Assembly (NCBI RefSeq): GCF_002804025.1
Contig: NZ_CP024969.1
Location: forward strand, 434,001 to 498,000
Direction of reading: 5' to 3'
Length of the DNA stretch: 64,000 nt
From: Mesoplasma tabanidae
Lineage (GTDB): Bacteria > Bacillota_I > Bacilli_A > Mycoplasmatales > Mycoplasmataceae
Both the position numbers and the translations under genes were made by a program. This document shows positions 19,504 to 61,420 of the stretch, one piece after another. The notes under the pieces are model-generated. The model did no database searches, had not been told where the DNA came from, and saw only the letters and a program-made list of their open reading frames with translations. Position 1 is the stretch's first letter; each line of letters begins with the position of its first letter.

Positions 19504-21807
19504 TTAATTTAGTTTACTCATGTCTTTAAACTTTGGTTTATATTCATTTTGTCAATTTGTATTTTCATCAAACCCTTGATGATTTCGAACATTTAATACA
19601 TTTCATTTTGATATATCATTATTAAAATTAGAATTATTAAACATATAAGACATATCAGTTACATTTGAAACATTTCATTCTGATATATTTTGATTAAAAA
19701 TAGAATTTTGAAACATTTTCTTTGTATTAGTGACTTTCGAAACATCTCATTTTGACAAGTCTTGATCAAAATTATAATTTAAAGCAAACATATATGACAT
19801 ATTAGTAACATTTGAAACTTTTCAATCAATAACTGTTTGGTCAAAATTAGTTCCAGTAAACATTGCTTCCATATTTTTCACTTTTGACACATTTCAGATC
19901 GATATATTACTGTCAAAACTTGAATAAGCAAACATATACGACATGTCAATAATATTAGATACATCTCAACTTGATATATCTTGATTAAAATTTTTAGTAA
20001 ACCTAAATAAATTTTTAAAACTTGTTATATTTTTGCTTACTGAATTAGGAACTTGCTCTATGGAGTTAGGCAATTTATATGCTAAACCATTTTTATCATA
20101 ACCTATATTAGTAACTATTTTTGTTCCATCTGGCGCAGAGCCCTTTATACTTATTTCTTTTTCACTATCTATATCTATATAGTATGTTAAATCATCAATA
20201 TAGTTTTTTTCTGTGTAAAAAGTGATATCTTCAACTTTACCAGAATAGACCAATGAATTTTCAATTGGTTCAACTGTAACTGTGTATTTTTTTATTTCTA
20301 AACCTTTAGGTATAGCTGTAATTGTTAATTTTACTTCATTAATTTTTAATTTAGGATTTTGTTTTAATAAAGCATCTTCTACAATTTGTTTATCATCACT
20401 TTCTAATTTACCTAAATCTTTTTCTAAAATTAAGCCTGGCAAATCGTCAAGATAGTTTTTTTCTGTGTAAAAAGTGATATCTTCAACTTTACCAGAATAG
20501 ACCAATGAATTTTCAATTGGTTCAACTGTAACTGTGTATTTTTTTATTTCAAAACCTTTATGTATAGCTGTAATTGTTAATTTTACTTCATTAATTTTTA
20601 ATTTAGGATTTTGTTTTAATAAAGCATCTTCTACAATTTGTTTATCATCACTTTCTAATTCACCTAAATCTTTTTCTAAAATTACGCTAGACAAATCGTC
20701 AAGATAGTTTTTTTCTGTGTAAAAAGTGATATCTTCAACTTTACCAGAATAGACCAATGAATTTTCAATTGGTTCAACTGTAACTGTGTATTTTTTTATT
20801 TCTAAACCTTTAGGTATAGCTGTAATTGTTAATTTTACTTCATTAATTTTTAATTTAGGATTTTGTTTTAATAAAGCATCTTCTACAATTTGTTTATCAT
20901 CACTTTCTAATTTACCTAAATCTTTTTCTAAAATTAAGCCTGGCAAATCGTCAAGATAGTTTTTTTCTGTGTAAAAAGTGATATCTTCAACTTTACCAGA
21001 ATAGACCAATGAATTTTCAATTGGTTCAACTGTAACTGTGTATTTTTTTATTTCAAAACCTTTATGTATAGCTGTAATTGTTAATTTTACTTCATTAATT
21101 TTTAATTTAGGATTTTGTTTTAATAAAGCATCTTCTACAATTTGTTTATCATCACTTTCTAATTCACCTAAATCTTTTTCTAAAATTACGCTAGACAAAT
21201 CGTCAAGATAAATAGCTTCTGTGTAAAAAGTGATATCTTCAACCTTACCAGAATAGACCAATGAATTTTCAATTGGTTCAACTGTAACTGTGTATTTTTT
21301 TATTTCTAAACCTTTAGGTATAGCTGTAATTGTTAATTTTACTTCATTAATTTTTAATTTAGAATTTTGTTTTAATAAAGCATCTTCTACAATTTGTTTA
21401 TCATCACTTTCTAATTTACCTAAATCTTTTTCTAAAATTACGCTAGACAAATCGTCAAGATAAATAGCTTCTGTGTAAAAAGTGATATCTTCAACTTTAC
21501 CAGAATAGACCAATGAATTTTCAATTGGTTCAACTGTAACTGTGTATTTTTTTATTTCTAAACCTTTAGGTATAGCTGTAATTGTTAATTTTACTTCATT
21601 AATTTTTAATTTAGGATTTTGTTTTAATAAAGCATCTTCTACAATTTGTTTATCATCACTTTCTAATTTACCTAAATCTTTTTCTAAAATTAAGCCTGGC
21701 AAATCAATTTTCTTATTTGTTACATTTTCACTACTACAAGAAACAGCTAAAATAACACCGTTTGTTGTTAAACTTAAAGCACATAAAAAACCTAATAATA
21801 CTTTCAT
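19504..21807 (-). CDS. Repeat-containing surface lipoprotein with DUF285/BspA-like C-terminus
   Basis: 767 residues. Lipoprotein signal with Cys at residue 24 (ILAVSCSS). Residues 36-539 are six tandem 84-residue repeats (ILEKDLG.LESDDKQIVEDA ... KVEDITFYTE). The C-terminal part (about residues 600-767) has repeats of the form FNQDISSWDVSNIIDMSYMF with the Trp encoded by TGA, the DUF285 (mycoplasma PARCEL/BspA-like) signature of surface proteins. Likely an exposed, size-variable adhesin-like protein. A 16-nt homopolymer lies 35 bases before the start, where the promoter should be, so phase-variable expression is plausible. Confidence 0.92.
20191..21702 (-). repeat. Six 252-bp tandem repeats within the DUF285 lipoprotein
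   Basis: Period exactly 252 bp (84 codons). Units differ at a few sites (LPGL or LSSV start; GKLES or GELES; PKGLEIKK or HKGFEIKK). In translation order, units 3+4 and 5+6 form a repeated 504-bp pair, pointing to recent recombination. Confidence 0.95.
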
Positions 21808-21828: not shown

Positions 21829-21861
21829 ATTTTAATTATTGCAAAAAAAAAAAAAAAACAA
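21829..21861 (-). promoter_or_regulatory. Homopolymer-containing promoter region (candidate phase switch)
   Basis: On the minus strand: TTGTTT overlapping the start of a run of 16 T (21858-21843), then GC and AATAATTAAAAT. With -35 TTGTTT and -10 AATAAT (21840-21835) the spacer is 15 bases, almost all T. Alternatively -10 is TAAAAT (21834-21829). Start codon at 21807. Confidence 0.6.
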
Positions 21862-43241: not shown

Positions 43242-45280
43242 ATGATTTTCATAGATTTAAATAAAACGAAAAAATTATTTGAACCATTTGTTATATAAAA
43301 ATTTATTTTTAACCTTTTTAATGTATTTATAGTTTCTTGATGCGGAAACTTTTTATTTCCTCCTTCATTTTCTCCACTAATTAATGCAAAATCAGGGTTT
43401 ATCAAATTAATGAAATCAAAAGATGAACTAGTTTTACTTCCATGATGACCGATTTGTAAAATATTCACTTTTTTTAAATTTAAAATATAAAGAAAATCTA
43501 TCCTACTCATTAAGTGAATCTCTGTTTCTTTTTCAGAATCACCCATGAAAACTGTTCTTATACTGCCAACATCTACAATTAAAACTAAACTTTTATTATT
43601 TTCAGAATTAGCATTAGGATTAATAAAAGCATTTATAATAATATTTTTTATCTTAATAGTACTAATAAAATCATCATTATATATTATTTCATTTATTCTA
43701 AATTTCTCCTTCAAACTAAATAAATTATTATAGTGATCTTCATGATTGTGGGAAATAAAAATTAAATTAATTTTATTTATTCCTTGATATTTTAAAAAAT
43801 CACTAACTAACTCAGAGCTTCTTTGTTTCCCAACTCCAGCATCAAATATTATTGTTATATTATTTCATTTGTTATGATAAACAAAGCTATTACCATTTCC
43901 TACATTTAGCATTGCTAAATACTCGCTAGGTTTAATTAGTCAATTTAAAAATCAAAACATAATAAATAAAAATATTCAAAAGGATTTTATTTTAAAAGTA
44001 ATTAAGTCTGATGAAATGCAAACAATCATTATAAAACCAAAAACTAAAAATAAAATACTATAGCTTCCAACATTTATTATTAAACTTATTTTTTTAAATG
44101 CCGAAATAATAAGCACTAAAACTTGGTATAAGTTTGTTAAAAAATCTTTATTAATAAAATACAGTAATGGGGTAACTAAATAATAGATACTTATTACTGG
44201 TGACAGTAAAATTGCGTAAAAACTTGATGTTATATTTATTTGATAATTAAAATAAATATTTAATACATTTAACAATGTGTAAAAATAAATAAATTGTATT
44301 ATTTTGCTATTTTTTTTATTTATAAAATAACTAAATAAAACAATTAAGTTAATATATCAAAATCCAGAACTAAATATAAAATTTGGGAATATTAGAATTA
44401 ATAATGTTATTACAATCAAATTTTTTAGTTCACTTTTGTTTTTTAATTGTTTAAACAAACTTAAAATCTGTTTAATCATAATCCTTGTCATAATTAAGGG
44501 TCAACAAGTTATATAGTTTCAAGCAAGCGATATTGTAATAAATAATATAACAACTATTTTACTTTTATTTTTTTTAAAAAATTTAAATATTAAAAGCATG
44601 TTAATTATGTTAAAGTTGAGTAAAAAAATTAGACCTAAATCATTAAAATTTGAAGCAACTAAATCACTTGAATCATATCTATTTAAAAACAAAGTTTTTA
44701 TTAATTCATGAGCTTCATTTAATTTAAAAACTTTGTATATTAAAACTCTTAAATTAAAATTATTAACTTCTTTTATGCTAGATACTTTTATCTGAAAGTT
44801 TACATATTCCTTTTTTAAGTAATCTTTAAAATCAAATTGATAATAATTGGCTGTACTATTTATATAACTCACTTTACCATTTATATGGACTTTCATTCCT
44901 ACAACATAATTATTTTTATTTGCTTGTATATAAAATTTTGTATTCTGAATCTTAACTATAATGTAATTTGTTTTACATTTAATTATTTTTCCTTTACCTA
45001 TTATTTCTTGTTCATTTTTAAAGCTATCTGAATTTCAATATAAATAAATCAAAAGTAAGGATATGAAAATTAATATCCAAGCTATTAAAAAATATTTTTT
45101 ATATTTTTCTTGTACTGACATAAAATAAACTGCTATTAATAAAGTTAATAATAAATATATAATTTCATTCGTAAAAATAAAATAATAAATTGATACAACT
45201 GAAAGTAAAAATGAAAAATATACTATTGGTTTAAAATGTAATAAATTTATTAATTCCTTTTTCAAATAAAAATTTGTCAT
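43232..45280 (-). CDS. comEC: ComEC/Rec2-like DNA uptake protein
   Basis: 682 residues with TGA as Trp. ATG 45280 is preferred; GTG 45292 is possible. N-terminal membrane helices and OB-like region (GKGKIIKCKTNYIIV), then the multi-helix Competence domain (SSGFWYINLIVLF), then a C-terminal metallo-beta-lactamase-like part with LNVGNGNSF, SHNHEDHYNNL (HxHxDH), GDSEKETEIHLM, QIGHHGSKTS and LISGENEGGNKKFPH. In competent bacteria it moves single-stranded DNA across the membrane. The metal ligands are retained. The start overlaps the upstream gene by 50 bases. Confidence 0.9.
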
Positions 45281-52014: not shown

Positions 52015-52713
52015 ATGAAAAAGTTATTATCAATTTTTAGTGTATTTGGGTTAACTGCGTCATCAGCACCAACTATTATGCATATTAATACATCAAGTGA
52101 AAATGCATCAATTAACAATGAAGAAATAAGAACTTTAGGTTCAGATGATATTCTTTATAATGAAAAAGCATTATCAAGTGAACGCGTTGCATATAAATTC
52201 AACAACTCGTACAATAATGAATTATTCTTTCATGAAACAACAGCAACAGGGAGACCTGATTGGACATATAGAACATATATTATTAAAACAAACACTCCAA
52301 AAAGTGAAGGCAAATGAATTGAATCAGTGGCCGTTAATAACGTTTATGGATCAAATAAAAAAGAAAGTGAAATTGTTTGAGGCGGTGATCGTTACTATCC
52401 AACTTCAGCTTTTGCAAGAACAAATTATATTAATACAAATAGAATCAATACAGGTTTTCCAAGTATGCCACCAGAATATATTAAAGCTTATTCAAATAAG
52501 TTAGCTTCATATTCATGAAGTTCTGGACTAGCAGTGCTTGATTATGAAGAATGAAGTGGAATTACAGAATATGATGATCCTTACTCAAATAACTTTGCTT
52601 TTATGTGAATTGTAGGATCGTGAATTAATCCTAAATGATCATTTTCTAATGGTAAGGCATGAACAAATTTAGGAAGAGAAATCGTCTTAGACATTAAATA
52701 TAATAGTTTCTAA
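52015..52713 (+). CDS. Secreted protein, hypothetical
   Basis: 232 residues. The signal peptide is of the mollicute lipoprotein style (MKKLLSIFSVFGLTASSAP) but has no Cys, so the product is probably secreted and cleaved, or held by its hydrophobic N-terminus. The mature part is rich in Trp (many TGA), Tyr, Ser and Asn, suggesting a compact beta-rich binding domain. No family recognised. Monocistronic: terminator at 52736. Confidence 0.85.
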
Positions 52714-52735: not shown

Positions 52736-52763
52736 AAAACGAAGAATTTTCTTCGTTTTTTTT
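52736..52763 (+). terminator. Rho-independent terminator
   Basis: AAAACGAAG / CTTCGTTTT with loop AATTTT, then a run of eight T. Confidence 0.9.
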
Positions 52764-52803: not shown

Positions 52804-52830
52804 TTGACAAAAAAAAAAAAAAAATAGTAT
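52804..52830 (+). promoter_or_regulatory. Promoter with poly-A spacer (phase-variation switch)
   Basis: Consensus -35 TTGACA (52804-52809) and -10 TAGTAT (52825-52830). The 15 bases between are all A (16 A in all with the last base of TTGACA). A 17-base spacer is optimal, so gain of one or two A would raise expression. It drives the surface-repeat operon. Confidence 0.85.
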
Positions 52831-52963
52831 TAGAAGTAACACTATTGTAGGTATATGTTTAATTTAATAAGTGAATTTTATTAACAGATATCTAAAAGTG
52901 GCAGCTAATAGTTATTTTTTAATATTAGCAAAAAAAGATCAAACAAAAAGGAGGATAACAAAA

Positions 52964-54271
52964 TTGAATGAAAATATTTTTAATAATAAAAAACAAAAAA
53001 CATCATTAATAATTATCCTATTGTTTTTCATATGTTTATTTTTAGGGTTAATTTTTTGGGTAAATCAATTAAATGATACGCACAAATATTTCATAGATTT
53101 TGTTAAAACTGAGCAAAAAGTTAAACAATATACAAATGATAATACATTTACAAGTATCGATAATTATCAAAGAGAGATTAATCAACTTGAGCTTGAAGGT
53201 GTTGAACTGTTTGCAAGTTTAAAAGATAACCAATCTATGTTAATTAATTCTCATACTAGTCAACAATATGAAATCAACATTCAAGTAAATTTTAAACTAA
53301 AATACAAATATTTTTGAATTCAAACAGAGCTAAATAACGAACAACAAAAAGAAACTTATTTGCTAAGTATCGATAATAGAAAAATAATTAATAAACAAGA
53401 TTTAGAACAATTTACAAGAAAACAATTAAGTTTTAAAGAATATGCTTTTACAAGTGATATACAAATTGATTTAGAAAAAATCGCTAAGCAATTTATTCCA
53501 ACTAAAGACGCTATAAATCTAAATCTAGTTAATCCAGAAAAAGAAATAAATGAATATATTGATGTAAGAGCTAGTTTGAACAATGAGCTTTATAAATGAA
53601 ATGATGGAAATGATGATGAGTATATAATGAAAGATATAAAAATTAAGAAAGACTTTTCAATTTTAATTGATGAGCAAAATGTGAATCAAGCATTAAGCAA
53701 AATAATTCAACAGATTAATTATTCAAGTATGCTATCAATTGATCAAGTAATTAATGAAACTTTTGTTGCTTATAATGCACAAGCTATTAATGACAACAAT
53801 ATAAAAGGAAGCTATATTATAAAAACAACACAAAAGTTAAAAACAAACTCTTCAAAAAATAAAAAAGAATTTTACTCATTAGAGTTTGAAATAGGTTTAG
53901 ATAGTAGATACAAATGAATTTCAACAAGAACAAACGAAACTAAAAAATTTATTTTTACTGACGACATTTATATTATTAACAACAAAATTTTGCTGGTTAA
54001 TGAAATTAAAAAAATAAAAATAAATTTTGAACAGCAGAAGTTCACCACTTATGATGAGTTAAATACTGAACTTGAAAGATTGAACAAAGAAAATGATCAA
54101 TATCAGCTTAAAATAACTGATTTTGATTTAAGCAAACCACTTGAAAATGACATGATAATTCAAATTAACATAAATTTAATTAATGATCACTATTGATTAT
54201 TAGACGATAACAGCATAATTAATGACGACATTATTTTAAAGCTAATCGTTAACAAAACAAAGGAGAAATAA
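52964..54271 (+). CDS. Membrane-anchored surface repeat protein 1
   Basis: 435 residues from TTG 52964, chosen because AAAAAGGAGG (52945-52954) stands before it; a GTG at 52871 has no such site. A basic N-terminus and one signal-anchor helix (about residues 12-34, LIIILLFFICLFLGLIFW) leave the rest outside. The outside part has about three related domains of 110-120 residues, each with a helix-forming stretch (TFTSIDNYQREINQLE; KFTTYDELNTELERL) and a strand ending in Lys-Trp or Tyr-Trp (Trp = TGA). Possibly related to mycoplasma type-17 lipoprotein domains. First gene of the switchable operon. Confidence 0.85.
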
Positions 54272-54272
54272 A

Positions 54273-55856
54273 ATGAAAAAATTATTAGGACTAATAACTG
54301 CAATATCATTAATATCAACATCAACTACATCATTTTATTCAATTAACACAAATAACAAAAAAGAAAATGTTATTTTGCCTGAAGAAAAGCCAAATGAACA
54401 AGGTGAAAATGATGTTAATAACACAAAATTAATTGCCAATGATGTTATTAACAAAATTCATAGTTCAGCTCAAAAAAGAACTTTTAAGTCATTTAGTGAA
54501 GCTCAAAATGAAATTTTAAACAATAAAACAAAAGGAACTACAATTTCATTTGAAAACACTCTTTTAAGTGAAGGCACAATTAAAAATGGAATGTTTAATA
54601 TAAACATTAAACTTGCTTTAGAAGAAAATTTTTCATGAGATAACACTAGTTTAGAAAATGAATTAACAATTTCAACAGTAATTAGTGTCGATGAAAGAAC
54701 AGAAATTGATGATAGTCAAATTTCAAGTTTATTTACACCGCTTAGTGAAACAATCCCAGCAACAGAAGAGAAAGTTGAACATCAAAGATATTATAAAACT
54801 ATAAATAATGCAATCAAAACTATTTTAAAAACTCAATACAATGATGGTGAAATTTTAAATGTTAATATTAAAGATGAATCAATAGCCCATGAAGTATTTA
54901 TTAATCAAGAAGTAACGTTTTTAGTTGAAATTATTTTAAATGAAGAAAATAAATGAAATCATTCTAATCAAAAAGAATTAAGTACAAAACAATTTGAAGT
55001 TACTTTGAAAATTGATCAAAGACAAGAAATTAAAGTTGGAGATATTCAACAAGATATAATGGCTAAAATACCACTTAATGAATATAATCAACGTAAGTTT
55101 TATTCTGAAAAAGAAGCATTAGACGCGATTAATAACTATAGTGACATATCTAGCTTAGAAGTTATAAAGGATAAAAAAATTTCACTTCAAGTTGAAAGCG
55201 ATTCATCAATTTTAACAAATGACCCAGTCTATAAAAAAGAATACAAAATCAAAGCAACCATTAATGATGAAAAATACAAGTGAAGTGATGAAACAATCGA
55301 AAGCAAAACTATAAATTTAGAAACTATTATTGATATAAGAACTGAAATTAAACAAGCTGATGTTGAAAAAAAACTATCTGATGCATTAGTTAATAAAAAA
55401 TTTAACACAGAAGCAGATCTAGTAAATCAAGTATTACAAATTGAAACAATTGATGGTTCTATGATTACAAATGTTGCAGTTACTCAAGTTAATGATGATG
55501 CAAAAGTAACTATACAAGTTATCTTGGATGCACAGCATCGATGAGATGATAAGGACGACAATAATTTACCTAAATCATTTCAAATTGATTCAAAAATTAT
55601 TGATACAAGATTAAGTTTAAGTAATGTTCACAAAGTTTTAAAAACAAAGTTTAATGAACAAAAATTTAAAAGCACTGATGAAGTAAAGAAATTTATTGAA
55701 GAAATTGAAATTGATGGATTGCTTATTAAAGAAGTAAGTATCACCGGAAACGAAACTGAAGGATGAATAATTATTTTAGAATTAACACCAAATGAAGATT
55801 ATACTTGAACAGATGGAACAAACAAACCAACAAAAGTAACACTTCTAGGAAATTAA
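54273..55856 (+). CDS. Secreted surface repeat protein 2
   Basis: 527 residues; ATG 54273 one base after the previous stop, with AAAGGAG before it. Signal peptide MKKLLGLITAISLISTSTTS without a lipobox Cys. The mature part has four or five domains of about 85-115 residues like those in the neighbouring genes (KRTFKSFSEAQNEIL; RKFYSEKEALDAINNY; KKFNTEADLVNQV; QKFKSTDEVKKFIEE), each closing with a D.R.EI-type strand. An outer-surface or secreted role is inferred. Confidence 0.87.
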
Positions 55857-55860
55857 AATA

Positions 55861-57132
55861 ATGAAAAGAAAATTAAATACATTAAAGAATTATAATAAGC
55901 ATCTGTGAATAAAAAAATACTTTAGACTTTGAATTAGTAAATCTAAATATAATAAAGTTTATAAGAAAGACATAATCAATGCACTTGATATTAAGCATCA
56001 AGAAATAAGTAAAATAAAAATTACAAATGTTGTTAATAGAACTCTTGAAAGTATCCAAAATGAACTTTTTAATCAACAAATAATAACTATTCGAGATTTT
56101 GGTAGTTTAAAAGTTGTAAAAAACAAAAAGCAATTAAGAATAGTTAAATTTACTCCTAGTAAAACTTTGAAAGAAAAAATGCAAGCAACAGAATGAACAG
56201 GCAAATATTGACAGCTAAAGAAAATAAAAAGAAAAAAGAAATGATTAATTTTACTTTTATTATTGCTTGCTTGTTTATTGTCAATAACTGCTACAACAAT
56301 AACAATTATTACTGTAACAGGTCAAACAACACAAAGAATTAAAAAAATAAGTTTTAATGAGCAACGTTTATTTATTCAGAATCTTGTTAAAGACAAAATC
56401 TATGATAGTTTTAATGATTTTGAAAAAGATGTTAAAGAAAATGCAAATAAGCAAGTTTTAGTAACTATTGAAAAAACTTCAACAAGAGAAAAAAGTGCGT
56501 TCTCAAAAATTGAAACACGAATTAAATTGGTTCCTAACGAAGGACATGAATGAGATGAAAATAAAGATGATCTAGAGCGTAGTTTTGAACAGCAGGTTTT
56601 AATTAAGAACAATAAAATTGTTAAAAAACAAGAAGTTGAAACACGACTAAATCAAATTTTAAATCTTTCATTTAATAATGAAAGTGACCTAATTGCAAAA
56701 GTTAATAAAGAATTTGCAGATTTTGAAAATATAATTTTTAAATCGGCTTTTCTTGACCAAAATCAGCAAGAAGAAAATAATTATATTTTTATTTTTGGAA
56801 TAGAGAACGATTATGTTTGAGATGATCAAACACAAGATGATATTGAAATATCAAAGCAAGTTAATTTATCTAATAAAATTGTTAGTTTAGCAAAAACAAT
56901 TAAACATATTAATCAATATTTTGAAGATTATATTTTTGTATCTGAATTAGAGCTAGACACATATATTAGTGAATTTAATTATCAAATTGAAACAATTAAT
57001 ATAAGTAAAGATAATTTCAACATGCAAACAAGTATTTTAACGTTAAAAATTAATTTAAATAATGACTATTACTGATCAGATGAAACAAGAGAAGAAGTAA
57101 TCTTACAAATAGTAATAAAAGGAAAGGAGTAA
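55861..57132 (+). CDS. HU-like domain fused through a membrane anchor to surface repeats
   Basis: 423 residues. Residues about 33-108 match HU/IHF: YKKDIINALDIKHQEISK helix, ITNVVNRTLESIQNEL, the beta turn IITIRDFGSLKVV (compare 'v.l.gFGtF'), then the C-terminal KFTPSKTLKEKM. The flexible DNA-gripping arm is shortened. A polybasic stretch (KKIKRKKK, 120-127) and one transmembrane helix (128-152) follow, so the HU domain is cytoplasmic. Residues 155-423 are outside and carry two or three repeat domains like those of the neighbours. Linkage of DNA or regulation to the surface is inference. Stop lies 3 bases before the next ATG. Confidence 0.85.
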
Positions 57133-57135
57133 TTT

Positions 57136-59682
57136 ATGAAAAAATTATTATCAATACTAGGAATAGGAATTTTTGTTACAGGGACTTCAACAGCTTCTTA
57201 TCCTATTTTAAGTTCAATTAGCCAAAATTTTAGAATTAATGAAAACATAAAGATTTTAAAAGTTAGTGAAATTAAACAAAATTTGCAAGAACAATTGAAC
57301 AATACTTTTAAAAATGAAGAAGATGTTGTTAAACTAATTAAAACTAATAACATTAAAGGTATTGAATATTCTGCTCAAATGCGCCCTATTAATGATGGAT
57401 TACATTTTGGACTAAGAACATTTAACATTATTGTAAAGATAACTGATTTTAGTTTATATCAATGAGAAAATAGTGATAAGCCTGATATGTTATTAACTAT
57501 GACTGCATTCATTGATGAACGCATTGAAATATCAACTAATTTAATACAGCAAGAATTAAATAAACGCTATGAAAATAAAATATTTGATTCAGAAATTAAA
57601 GCACAAAGAGAAATTTTATTAAACAATGAAATTATAACTGGAGCAAATGTTATTTATGTTGAACCTACTAATGCAATTAAACCTGAAGATAGTAAAATTT
57701 ATCAACAAAAATATAATGTTAAGGTTTCGTTAGACGATAAATATAAATGAGATATTCAACAACAATCAACAGAAGGTTTATACATAAAAACAAATATTGA
57801 CGAAAGAAATAAAATTGACTCTGAATCTATTAAAAATGAAATCAAAGAAAAACTTAATCTTAATAATAAACATTATGAAACAATTAGTGAAGCTACAAAT
57901 GAATTAAAAAATGTTGATTTCACTTTAAAAAATGATGTTGAAATAATAAATGTTAAACCCTTATCAAATATTACAAAAATAGACACTAAACAAATAAGTT
58001 TGAGCTATGATTTAAAATTAAAAGAACCTAAAAAAAATAAATGAGTTGATGAAACAGTTGATGATATAAACGCTGAAGTTTCAGTAGCTATTGATAGTAG
58101 AAATGAAGTAGATCTAAATAAAGTTAATAGCGAAATTAACACTTATATACAAGCAAAACAATTCAAATCAGTTGAAGAAGCTTTAAACTACACTAAAGAA
58201 TACAAAAACCTACCAGAAGAAATCATATTTGATAGTGTAACATCAACTTCAACAACAATCTTTGGTAATGCTGATTTAACAATCAAACTAAAAATAAAAG
58301 ACAGCAACAAAGCAAAATGATCAGACAACACAACCGAAACAAAAACAATCACCATCCAAGCAAAAATCGATGGAAGAAGCATTGTAGATCTAAATAAAGT
58401 TAATAGCGAAATTAACACTTATATACAAGCAAAACAATTCAAATCAGTTGAAGAAGCTTTAAACTACACTAAAGAATACAAAAACCTACCAGAAGAAATC
58501 ATATTTGATAGTGTAACATCAACTTCAACAACAATCTTTGGTAATGCTGATTTAACAATCAAACTAAAAATAAAAGACAGCAACAAAGCAAAATGATCAG
58601 ACAACACAACCGAAACAAAAACAATCACCATCCAAGCAAAAATCGATGGAAGAAGCATTGTAGATCTAAATAAAGTTAATAGCGAAATTAACACTTATAT
58701 ACAAGCAAAACAATTCAAATCAGTTGAAGAAGCTTTAAACTACACTAAAGAATACAAAAACCTACCAGAAGAAATCATATTTGATAGTGTAACATCAACT
58801 TCAACAACAATCTTTGGTAATGCTGATTTAACAATCAAACTAAAAATAAAAGACAGCAACAAAGCAAAATGATCAGACAACACAACCGAAACAAAAACAA
58901 TCACCATCCAAGCAAAAATCGATGGAAGAATATCAATTAAAACTGATTTAATAGTAACTGATTTAGGTTACTTTGCTTGAAAAGAAACAGAAGCTCAACA
59001 AACTATTAAAAACAAAATTTTAGAAAAAAATGCAAATTTAAAAATTGATGAGATTGAACTTACAGAAATAACAAATAAAAGCGCAAAAGTTAATGTTAAC
59101 CAAAATTCTAGCATATACTTTGTCGAATCATTAATTATAAGCTTTGAAAGAGATGTTCGTGTAGCACTAGCAACACATGTAAATAAAACAAATATTGGTC
59201 AGATACAAACCACTAGAGATAAAATCAATTTAAATTTATTAAAAGCATTAGTTATAAATAATCCAAATTTAAATACTAACGAGATTGAAATTTTAAATAT
59301 AAATTATTCAGACGAAAATAACTGTAAATTTGACTTAAGCGTTAAAAAAGATTCTAAAGTTTACTTTGAAACTAAAATGGCTTTAACATTCACCCTTAAA
59401 AAAATTGATATTATTGCAAGTATAAATAGTACAAGTAAGACAATTATGATTGAAAAAGTGGAAACATTAGAAGATGCATATAATTACTTTAAAAGTGGAA
59501 AAGATCCCCAATTTAATAATCTTTATCAGTGAGATGATGTTGAAATAGTAGAGTGAGTTAATGGTTCAAGTTCATCTTATCCAGAATGATATTCAGGTTA
59601 CTATGTCATAAAAGTAAAAAAAGATTCATTCTATTATAAAAATGGTGGTCAATCTAAATTGTATCTTAGAAGAAAATATTAA
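57136..59682 (+). CDS. Secreted surface repeat protein 3, size-variable
   Basis: 848 residues. Signal peptide MKKLLSILGIGIFVTGTSTAS without Cys. Several diverged domains are followed by three identical 92-residue units (FKSVEEALNYTKEYKNLPEE ... WSDNTTETKTITIQAKIDGR, Trp = TGA), then a unique C-terminal part (about 595-848) with two LI.NL/ALVINNPNLNTNEI-type modules and an aromatic end (SSSSYPEWYSGYYVIK). AAAGGAG before ATG 57136. Last gene of the phase-switch operon; a terminator follows. Likely surface-exposed and length-variable. Confidence 0.9.
58108..58930 (+). repeat. Three identical 276-bp tandem repeats
   Basis: Units start at 58108, 58384 and 58660 (GTAGATCTAAATAAAG). No difference was seen between them across the full 276-bp unit; the third loses identity at 58931. 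In frame (92 codons). Confidence 0.95.
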
Positions 59683-59751: not shown

Positions 59752-60225
59752 TATAAATTAAAATTAGAAGTATAACACTTCTAACCGAATGCCTCGTAAT
59801 TCGCGAACTGATTATAGTTCATGAATTACGAGGCATTTAAATTTGTTAAGCCTTTTCGTGTACTTTCAACTATTGTCATTATGGCTTTTGAACTATTACC
59901 AAAGCTAACAACTAAATCAATTTTAAAATGACGAATATCTTTTCTTTGATTGATGCTTCTAGGTCTATAGGTAATTGGAATAGAATTCATATTAGATATT
60001 TTTTCATTAATTTACCATTATTCAAGAATTCTTCTGTCAATGCTTTATCTGTAAATTTTTGATCTATCTCATTAATTCATCAGCTATAAAAGAAACATAT
60101 TTATTTATAATTATTCATTGTAACTTACTTGAACTTTGAATGGTCAAGGATTGCTTTTTATATCAAAAAAACTGCAATTCTTATAAGATTATTTTCTCAT
60201 AGAGAATAAAGCTGCATTTTTGATT
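59752..60225 (-). mobile_element. IS30-family element remnant
   Basis: Minus-strand relic. The left limit TATAAATTAAAATTAGAAGT matches the right end of the intact IS (59752 onward); then a hairpin ATGCCTCGTAATTC/GAATTACGAGGCAT (59789-59836). Pieces of transposase follow (FEIDLVVSFGNSSKAIMTIV-like coding near 59870-59950), then large deletions, and the other end near 60130-60225 still shows the hairpin before the transposase start (ATGAATAATTATAAAT complement). No intact gene. Confidence 0.8.
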
Positions 60226-60317: not shown

Positions 60318-61420
60318 TATCAATTGTAATTGGAAGTGCAACACTTGTGAGAAAATATTTTCATGAGTCACTTCCTTTTTTGCATAAAAAAAGTGAATAC
60401 CTCAATAACCGTTCAAAGCACAAAGGAGTATTCACATGAATAATTATAAACAACTAAATAAAAAAGATAGATATTTGATTGAATATTTATTAAATGGCTG
60501 AAAAGTATTGCTTATATTGCAAAAGAATTGAATAAAAATAGATCAACAATTTATAGAGAAATAAAAAGAAATAAAGCTAGTGAAATTTATACAGCAAAAG
60601 ATGCACAATTCTCAAGAGAAATAAATAATCAAAAATCTCATTTAAATGAAACAAAAAATTATCAAAACTTTATTCAATATTTATACTCCAATTTTAGTAA
60701 AAAATATTCAAGTATTGATATTTGTGTTTTTAAAGCCAAACAATTTGGTATAAACACGCCAACAACAAAAACTGCTTACAATTGAATCAATACAAATCAG
60801 TTAAAGATTAAACCTAAACATTTGTTGAGACCTAGATTATGATGAGATAAGTCAAGTAAATACAATGAACCCTTTAAAAAAATAGCTAACTTAAATTCAA
60901 TACCTATTTCGTTTAGACCTAAATGAATAAACAATCGTTCAGAGTTTGGCCACTATGAAGTTGATCTAATTGTTGGTGAAAAAAACAGTGGTTATATTTT
61001 AACTTTAGTTGAAAGATTAACTAGAAAAGCTTTTGCGATTAAATTAAAAAATAGAACAATGAAGCATACAAATGAAAAATTTTTAGAACTTATTAATAAA
61101 AAAAATATTATGCTAAAAAGTATCACAAAAGATAATGGTATGGAATTCAATTTATTACATGAAATTACTAATAAAATTAATGTCAAATTATATACGTGTA
61201 ATACTTATGCTTCTTGTGAACGTGGGACAAATGAAAATTTCAATGGACTAATGAGAAGAGAATATCCAAAATCAACAAACTTTTCTAATTTAAATGATGA
61301 TACGATTAACTCATTACTATCACAAATAAATAAAATGTCTCGAATAACTGCTTAGCCATAAAACTGCTAATCAATTATTCGAGACATTCGGTTATAAGTG
61401 TTGCACTTCCATTTACAATT
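60318..61420 (+). mobile_element. IS30-family element, diverged second type, decayed
   Basis: About 1.1 kb with ends AATTGTAATTGGAAGTGCAA (left, 60322) and AATTGTAAATGGAAGTGCAA (right, reverse strand), both continuing CACTT. The flanks TAAAACTTAAGTT (60306) and TAAAACTTTAGTT (61421) look like an imperfect target duplication. The right end touches the pepP stop codon. The transposase is broken. Sequence differs clearly from the 33965 copy, so it is a separate subtype. Confidence 0.85.
60436..61400 (+). pseudogene. IS30-family transposase, frameshifted twice
   Basis: Begins MNNYKQLNKKDRYLIEYLLNGW. One A is missing near 60500-60505 (GGCTGAAAAG), which throws the HTH (IAKELNKNRSTIYREIKRNKA) out of frame with the start. 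The body from 60528 is open through TGA-Trp codons and keeps the DDE residues: FGHYEVDLIVG, SITKDNGMEFN, CERGTNENFNGLMRR. A second single-base change near 61350 brings a stop (ACTGCTTAG) before the normal ETFGYK end. Confidence 0.88.

Follow-up and report, generated by a model that had tools for sequence, protein, structure and literature searches.

Positions 52804–52830 (plus strand) of the window, that is, of the whole 64-kb stretch of Mesoplasma tabanidae DNA analysed here, carry a promoter-like element ahead of four adjoining genes. As read directly, the perfect −35 consensus TTGACA (52804–52809) is followed by the −10-like element TAGTAT (52825–52830), and the spacer between them consists entirely of A (15 A, 52810–52824). 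Together with the last base of TTGACA, the spacer forms a run of 16 A (52809–52824). The original prediction, which proposed here a slipped-strand switch of a surface-protein operon, gave all of these bases and coordinates exactly. TAGTAT matches TATAAT or TAWAAT at only four of six positions. The 27-mer 52804–52830 is unique in the genome of 846,907 bases. It is absent from the output of a consensus promoter scan, which admits spacers of 16–18 bases only. The preceding gene (52015–52713) ends in its own intrinsic terminator (52736–52759, plus strand), a 10-pair stem with a T tail, which isolates the promoter from upstream transcription. On the other side, a predicted 5′ leader (52837–52963, plus strand), whose start site is placed 6–7 bases past the −10, ends in an AGGAGG Shine-Dalgarno sequence. 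The A-run is adjoined by an imperfect inverted repeat, TAGTATTA-GAAG-TAACACTA (52825–52844), with an 8-pair flush stem that is reached by 1.0% of shuffles. The minus strand of this repeat and the run reads as a weak hairpin followed by T16, which could mean another role for the run. Reading the run as an UP element was rejected because it sits between the −35 and −10 and not 5′ of the −35. We consider 52804–52830 very probably to be a sigma-70-type promoter with a homopolymer −35/−10 spacer, lying ahead of the genes at 52964–59682.

The four ORFs lie on the plus strand with gaps of 1, 4 and 3 bases, and their reading frames require TGA to encode Trp. This layout backs the earlier claim that a single element stands ahead of four genes. 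Gene 1 (52964–54271, 435 aa) begins with TTG after AGGAGG, and its product has an N-terminal transmembrane segment and an outer repeat-type domain. Gene 2 (54273–55856, 527 aa) encodes a protein with a signal-like N-terminus and repeated alpha/beta domains but without a lipobox Cys. The product of gene 3 (55861–57132, 423 aa) combines an HU/IHF-like DNA-binding domain (27.6 bits against PF00216, cut-off 22.4), a transmembrane segment and an outer repeat-type domain. Gene 4 (57136–59682, 848 aa) encodes a signal-like N-terminus and three identical 92-aa repeats. There is one strong hydrophobic segment each in the products of gene 1 (residues 9–38) and gene 3 (residues 125–154), and those of genes 2 and 4 have weak signal-like N-termini that start with MKKLL as in signal peptides. 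From these segments and N-termini, we infer that the operon proteins are located at the cell surface. No Cys was found in the first 35 residues of the products of genes 2, 3 and 4, so they are not typical lipoproteins, and the gene 2 product scores under the NCBIfam lipoprotein cut-off. The Vlp lipoprotein family was not among the Pfam and NCBIfam matches of the four proteins. BLAST revealed a relationship between genes 2 and 4, and weaker matches connect them with genes 1 and 3. The gene 2 structure model suggests repeated alpha/beta domains (mean pLDDT 76, pTM 0.47); it had no convincing match in the PDB, the best TM-scores being 0.2 or less among the matches listed. In gene 4, 58108–58930 consists of three 276-base tandem repeats that are identical (100% match) and in frame, so recombination could alter protein length.

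Mobile DNA also lies near the operon. An insertion sequence at 60320–61410, which we take to be IS30-like, has a transposase-like ORF and terminal inverted repeats, and a shorter inverted repeat at 59768–59840 has ends that look similar by eye. The bases past 52830 also resemble the ends of this element by eye. A 21-base search for an insertion-sequence end beside the run, allowing 3 mismatches, found no second copy within the 64-kb window.

A profile search with gene 1 found homologs in 3 of 60 genomes of the family, belonging to 2 of 12 genera: M. tabanidae itself (G000), G005 and G009, the last counted once though it gave two matches of one gene. Gene 1 as a single-sequence query against the genome contigs found no homolog; the profile search did. 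The G005 and G009 homologs share 35 and 28% identity with the gene 1 product. All three genes carry in the intergenic region 5′ of them the same 21 bases, TTGAC followed by A16, and the −35 element TTGACA is identical. Thus, the run is exactly 16 long in every one of the three species. When the flanks (60 bases upstream and up to 70 downstream) were compared in pairs, the fractions of shuffles reaching the score were 0.023, 0.977, 0.540, 0.103, 0.043 and 0.263. The similarity of the flanks lies within that of shuffles, and the upstream side retains a trace at most. The likely −10 differs between the species: TAGTAT with a spacer of 15 in M. tabanidae, CATAAT with 16 in G005 and TAAGAT with 18 in G009. 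The gene 1 start codon is TTG in M. tabanidae (L040) and G005 (L079) and GTG in G009. G005 has counterparts of genes 2 and 4, each at 37% identity, and in G009 gene 1 is followed by genes of similar size and N-terminus. Gene 3 has no counterpart in the G005 or G009 operon, and no such gene lies between their genes 2 and 3. Terminator-like hairpins are seen by eye at the corresponding place in both loci, while no inverted repeat corresponding to 52825–52844 was seen at the G005 homolog. The claim of a homopolymer-spacer promoter before the operon is borne out by TTGAC and A16 in three of three homologous operons among 60 family genomes, in intergenic surroundings that have diverged.

The run is one of a set. 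The whole M. tabanidae genome contains ten A/T runs of at least 12, and their lengths are 15 (one), 16 (eight) and 18 (one). In 144,606 bases of this genome, runs up to 7 occur as expected from a first-order Markov model, those of 8 number 52 against 103 expected, and those of 9–14 are absent against about 79 expected. Because this sample was chosen for holding runs, the fair comparison for lengths of at least 15 is the whole genome, with ten runs against roughly three expected from the scaled Markov figure. The occurrence of the A-run at the promoter is not due to chance. Runs of at least 11 number 51 across the seven genomes of the genus, with lengths of 15 (10), 16 (33), 17 (6), 18 (1) and 19 (1); four of them lie in G004, at 44583, 284209, 437602 and 548682. 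The loci of the other six genomes also contain four runs of 9–10, overlapping loci included. In another genus of the family (30 loci), 27 of 35 runs of at least 9 have length 15–18, and C followed by at least 11 A is matched in 51 of the 60 family genomes. Nearly all of the 51 runs are intergenic and 5′ of a gene. The exceptions are one run flanked by converging genes and one located in a short, doubtful ORF; an apparent second in-gene run (G002:54241) is an ORF-calling artefact ahead of a PTS-like gene. Among the genes behind the runs are probable lipoproteins of the MKKLL type, genes resembling PTS and ABC transporters and, in G005, a C5-methyltransferase-like gene; save for the four operon proteins and P0001, these names were given by eye from sequence. 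The run at 52809–52824 is one of these genus-wide tracts, which stand ahead of genes for transporters, a DNA methyltransferase and what are probably surface lipoproteins. The original prediction was right about the site and its bases, but overlooked that the run belongs to this genome- and genus-wide set. In the sense of the gene behind, the run is A in 7 and T in 19 of 26 run groups.

Several other loci of this kind were observed. The second A16 run of the window (21843–21858) is T16 in the sense of the gene at 19504–21807 (minus strand), 35 bases from its start. This gene encodes a 767-aa probable lipoprotein; a hairpin lies against its T16, and its G005 ortholog also has T16. At L080 (G005:C2:117514–117529), CTTGC-A16-GATAGAAT stands ahead of the gene that by eye is C5 DNA-methyltransferase-like, which is possibly a phase-variable modification gene. 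L072 (G002:C1:470878–470909) consists of adjoining runs of T and A, 15 and 17 long, and similar pairs are found again in genus g8, for example at G027:541670–541691.

Promoter-like motifs flank these runs. For the counts, one representative was taken per run group (26 groups of the genus), and control draws were made from the same flanks. TTG lies within five bases 5′ of the run in 13 of 26 groups (control mean 1.7; 0 of 2000 draws reached 13). On the 3′ side, TAnnnT starts within 0–8 bases in 15 groups (control 7.75, reached in 0.1% of draws), and TAWAAT is matched at 5 of 6 positions in 17 groups (control 9.7, 0.25% of draws). This enrichment above control at long runs elsewhere in the genus also upholds the homopolymer-spacer promoter. 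TTGACA-A(n)-TAnnnT was found at eight places in five of the 60 family genomes and the reversed pattern at two. TTGAC, TTAAC or TTGC, a pattern picked after the sites had been seen, precedes 4 of 7 A-class runs; among 258 short runs, the share is 0.8%. Nor is the motif restricted to the family, since TTGACA followed by A14 or more and TAnnnT was found in 44 stretches across 84,980 species of many phyla, including Mycoplasma testudinis. At T-class runs, the adjoining hairpin has a mean flush stem of 7.9 pairs against 5.1 in shuffles (19 groups), and 9 of the 19 are reached by 4% of shuffles or fewer, which is what a terminator of the upstream gene would show. The T class thus looks mixed, and the U-tract of a terminator and the spacer of a promoter may coincide there; this is a lead and not a result.

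The base of the run can change between genera. The MQFL gene has T17 in G002 (Mesoplasma) and A15 with TTGACA in G032 of another genus (54% identity, 369 aa). Similarly, the gene of a 77-aa membrane protein has T16 in M. tabanidae and A16 with TTGACA in G038 (53% identity over 76 aa). In these two genes, the feature that is kept is a homopolymer of about 16 ahead of the gene, whichever base it is made of. This exchange of A and T at orthologs is hard to explain by a terminator or by neutral drift alone.

We propose that the A-run in the spacer is a slippage switch of the four-gene operon, which is likely on the basis of sequence comparison. The promoter at 52804–52830 would drive the adjoining genes at 52964–59682, and its 16-A run would gain or lose bases through replication slippage in a genome lacking MutS. 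Each change in length would shift the −10 and rotate it relative to the −35 round the helix, and transcription of the operon would rise or fall with run length. The sequenced state, with its spacer of 15, would probably be weak, and one or two extra A would bring the spacer to 16–17. A weak state is plausible from this spacer and a −10 matching at four of six positions; that it is OFF, as judged from the spacing, is a guess. No match to MutS_V was found in the M. tabanidae genome, and the same search was positive in 11 of 14 control genomes. In the absence of MutS, frequent slippage is expected at a 16-base run. Furthermore, run length differs among members, by 1–3, in 8 of 11 ortholog or paralog groups with at least two members.

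Some observations count against a switch. The run is fixed at 16 A in the three homologous operons, and it does not vary in the MEKN (16 in seven of seven) and MKVLL (two of two) groups. As a −10, TAGTAT is poor; the promoter consensus of M. florum, as given in the part of PMC10884336 that was consulted, has a strong −10 and a degenerate −35. An alternative is an operon promoter that does not switch, in which a stable, bent or stiff A-tract spacer is selected at 16 and expression is constant. The length of 16 in three of three operons and in 33 of the 51 genus runs fits such a spacer, and it has a documented precedent in the vpma T-tract (PMC2268961, consulted in part). However, a 16-base homopolymer without MutS is expected to slip, and length does differ in 8 of 11 multi-member groups. 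In addition, the same A16 is accompanied by spacers of 15, 16 and 18 in the three species, and the total spacing is thus not kept the same. We regard a constant-expression spacer as unlikely.

Alternatively, an intrinsic terminator might use the run as its U-tract. In the gene sense, many of the sister runs consist of T and adjoin a hairpin, with the longer stems of the T class described above, and the minus strand at the promoter itself reads as a hairpin and T16. But in the sense of the operon the run is A, so it cannot terminate the transcript of the operon or of the upstream gene, and the latter already has its terminator at 52736–52759. No main minus-strand gene lies within 52964–59682, and the hairpin is missing from the other A-class groups and from the G005 homolog. 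Even for the T class, TTG stands ahead of 11 of 19 runs against 5 of 41 ordinary terminator-like runs of T5–8. An intrinsic terminator in the operon sense was rejected because a hairpin followed by a T-run in that sense is not found, and a terminator as the explanation of the A-run is quite improbable. For the T-class runs, termination may well be an additional role.

A similarly small chance is left to a functionless homopolymer, in which intergenic runs past about 9 would grow, without mismatch repair, to an equilibrium near 16. The sharply bimodal lengths in the 144,606 bases (8 or less, or at least 15) and the absence of MutS are as this would predict. Against it speak the identical 21 bases at three operons with diverged flanks, the enrichment of TTG and −10-like motifs around runs, and the two genes with an A-run in one genus and a T-run in another. 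A neutral length equilibrium is compatible with a promoter role. An assembly or sequencing artefact is negligible: although M. tabanidae was assembled from MiSeq reads at about 880× (PMC6117150, consulted in part) and one-base stutter is possible, all 51 runs of the seven genomes (G004 included) are 15–19 long, and an artefact cannot explain that the run is there at all.

Returning to the slippage switch, a wider version of it is tentative and falls somewhat short of an even chance. The family would share contingency promoters built on one class of tract (A or T, about 15–17; 11–14 absent in the genus), the same orthologs would keep the switch across genera despite the change from T to A, and T-type tracts would double as the U-tract of the upstream terminator. 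If this is true, one slip in a T-type tract could affect both initiation and read-through, and switchable genes would exist at four sites even in the near-minimal model M. florum. Most known cases of phase variation in mollicutes come from animal pathogens, in which immune escape accounts for it. If the switch is real, insect- and plant-associated near-minimal Mesoplasma would keep bet-hedging without an adaptive immunity to evade, and it would cover transporters, surface proteins and DNA modification. It would also mean hidden heterogeneity in the chassis M. florum, whose promoters and terminators were mapped assuming a fixed sequence. The conservation of the promoter in three species offers a direct test.

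Homopolymer-spacer promoters are already known in mollicutes. The vlp promoters of Mycoplasma hyorhinis, reportedly studied by Citti and Wise in 1995, have a poly-A spacer tract. The repeat is poly-T in maa2 of M. arthritidis and TA in vmm of M. mycoides; these are single genes in pathogens. According to the portion of PMC2268961 consulted, vlp, maa2 and vmm are switched by indels in the promoter spacer. The comparison with vlp made in the original prediction is therefore apt in kind. As in those systems, a simple repeat lies between the −35 and −10 (TTGACA-A15-TAGTAT), and the same −35 and run are present in both homologs. The likeness to vlp extends to a slippage-prone spacer tract in a mollicute, ahead of genes for surface proteins, here probable ones. 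In vlp, an indel turns transcription on or off. The Mesoplasma tract differs in preceding a four-gene operon without typical lipobox cysteines or a match to the Vlp family, and its switching is a proposal. The host also differs, as M. tabanidae is insect-associated (PMC6117150, Table 1, consulted in part). Compared with maa2 and vmm, which are likewise spacer-length switches, the repeat bases differ, and the consulted part of PMC2268961 describes no genus-wide set for them. vpma of M. agalactiae also resembles the Mesoplasma promoter in having a homopolymer, a T-tract, directly 5′ of the −10 at the promoter of a surface protein, in Mesoplasma a probable one; the vpma tract was found not to cause variation (PMC2268961, same portion), which calls for caution about a switch in Mesoplasma. 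In the main texts of the open-access literature, we found nothing for Mesoplasma on phase variation or on homopolymer promoters. With the same scope, "phase var" and "homopolymer" are both absent from the M. florum papers PMC7745072 and PMC10884336, as is "homopolymer" from PMC5893858. Three things are new relative to vlp, maa2 and vmm: a conserved operon would be under such control, the runs form a set across the genus, and two orthologous genes have an A-run in one genus and a T-run in another. The set, its uniform length and the exchange of A and T are the part that would surprise.
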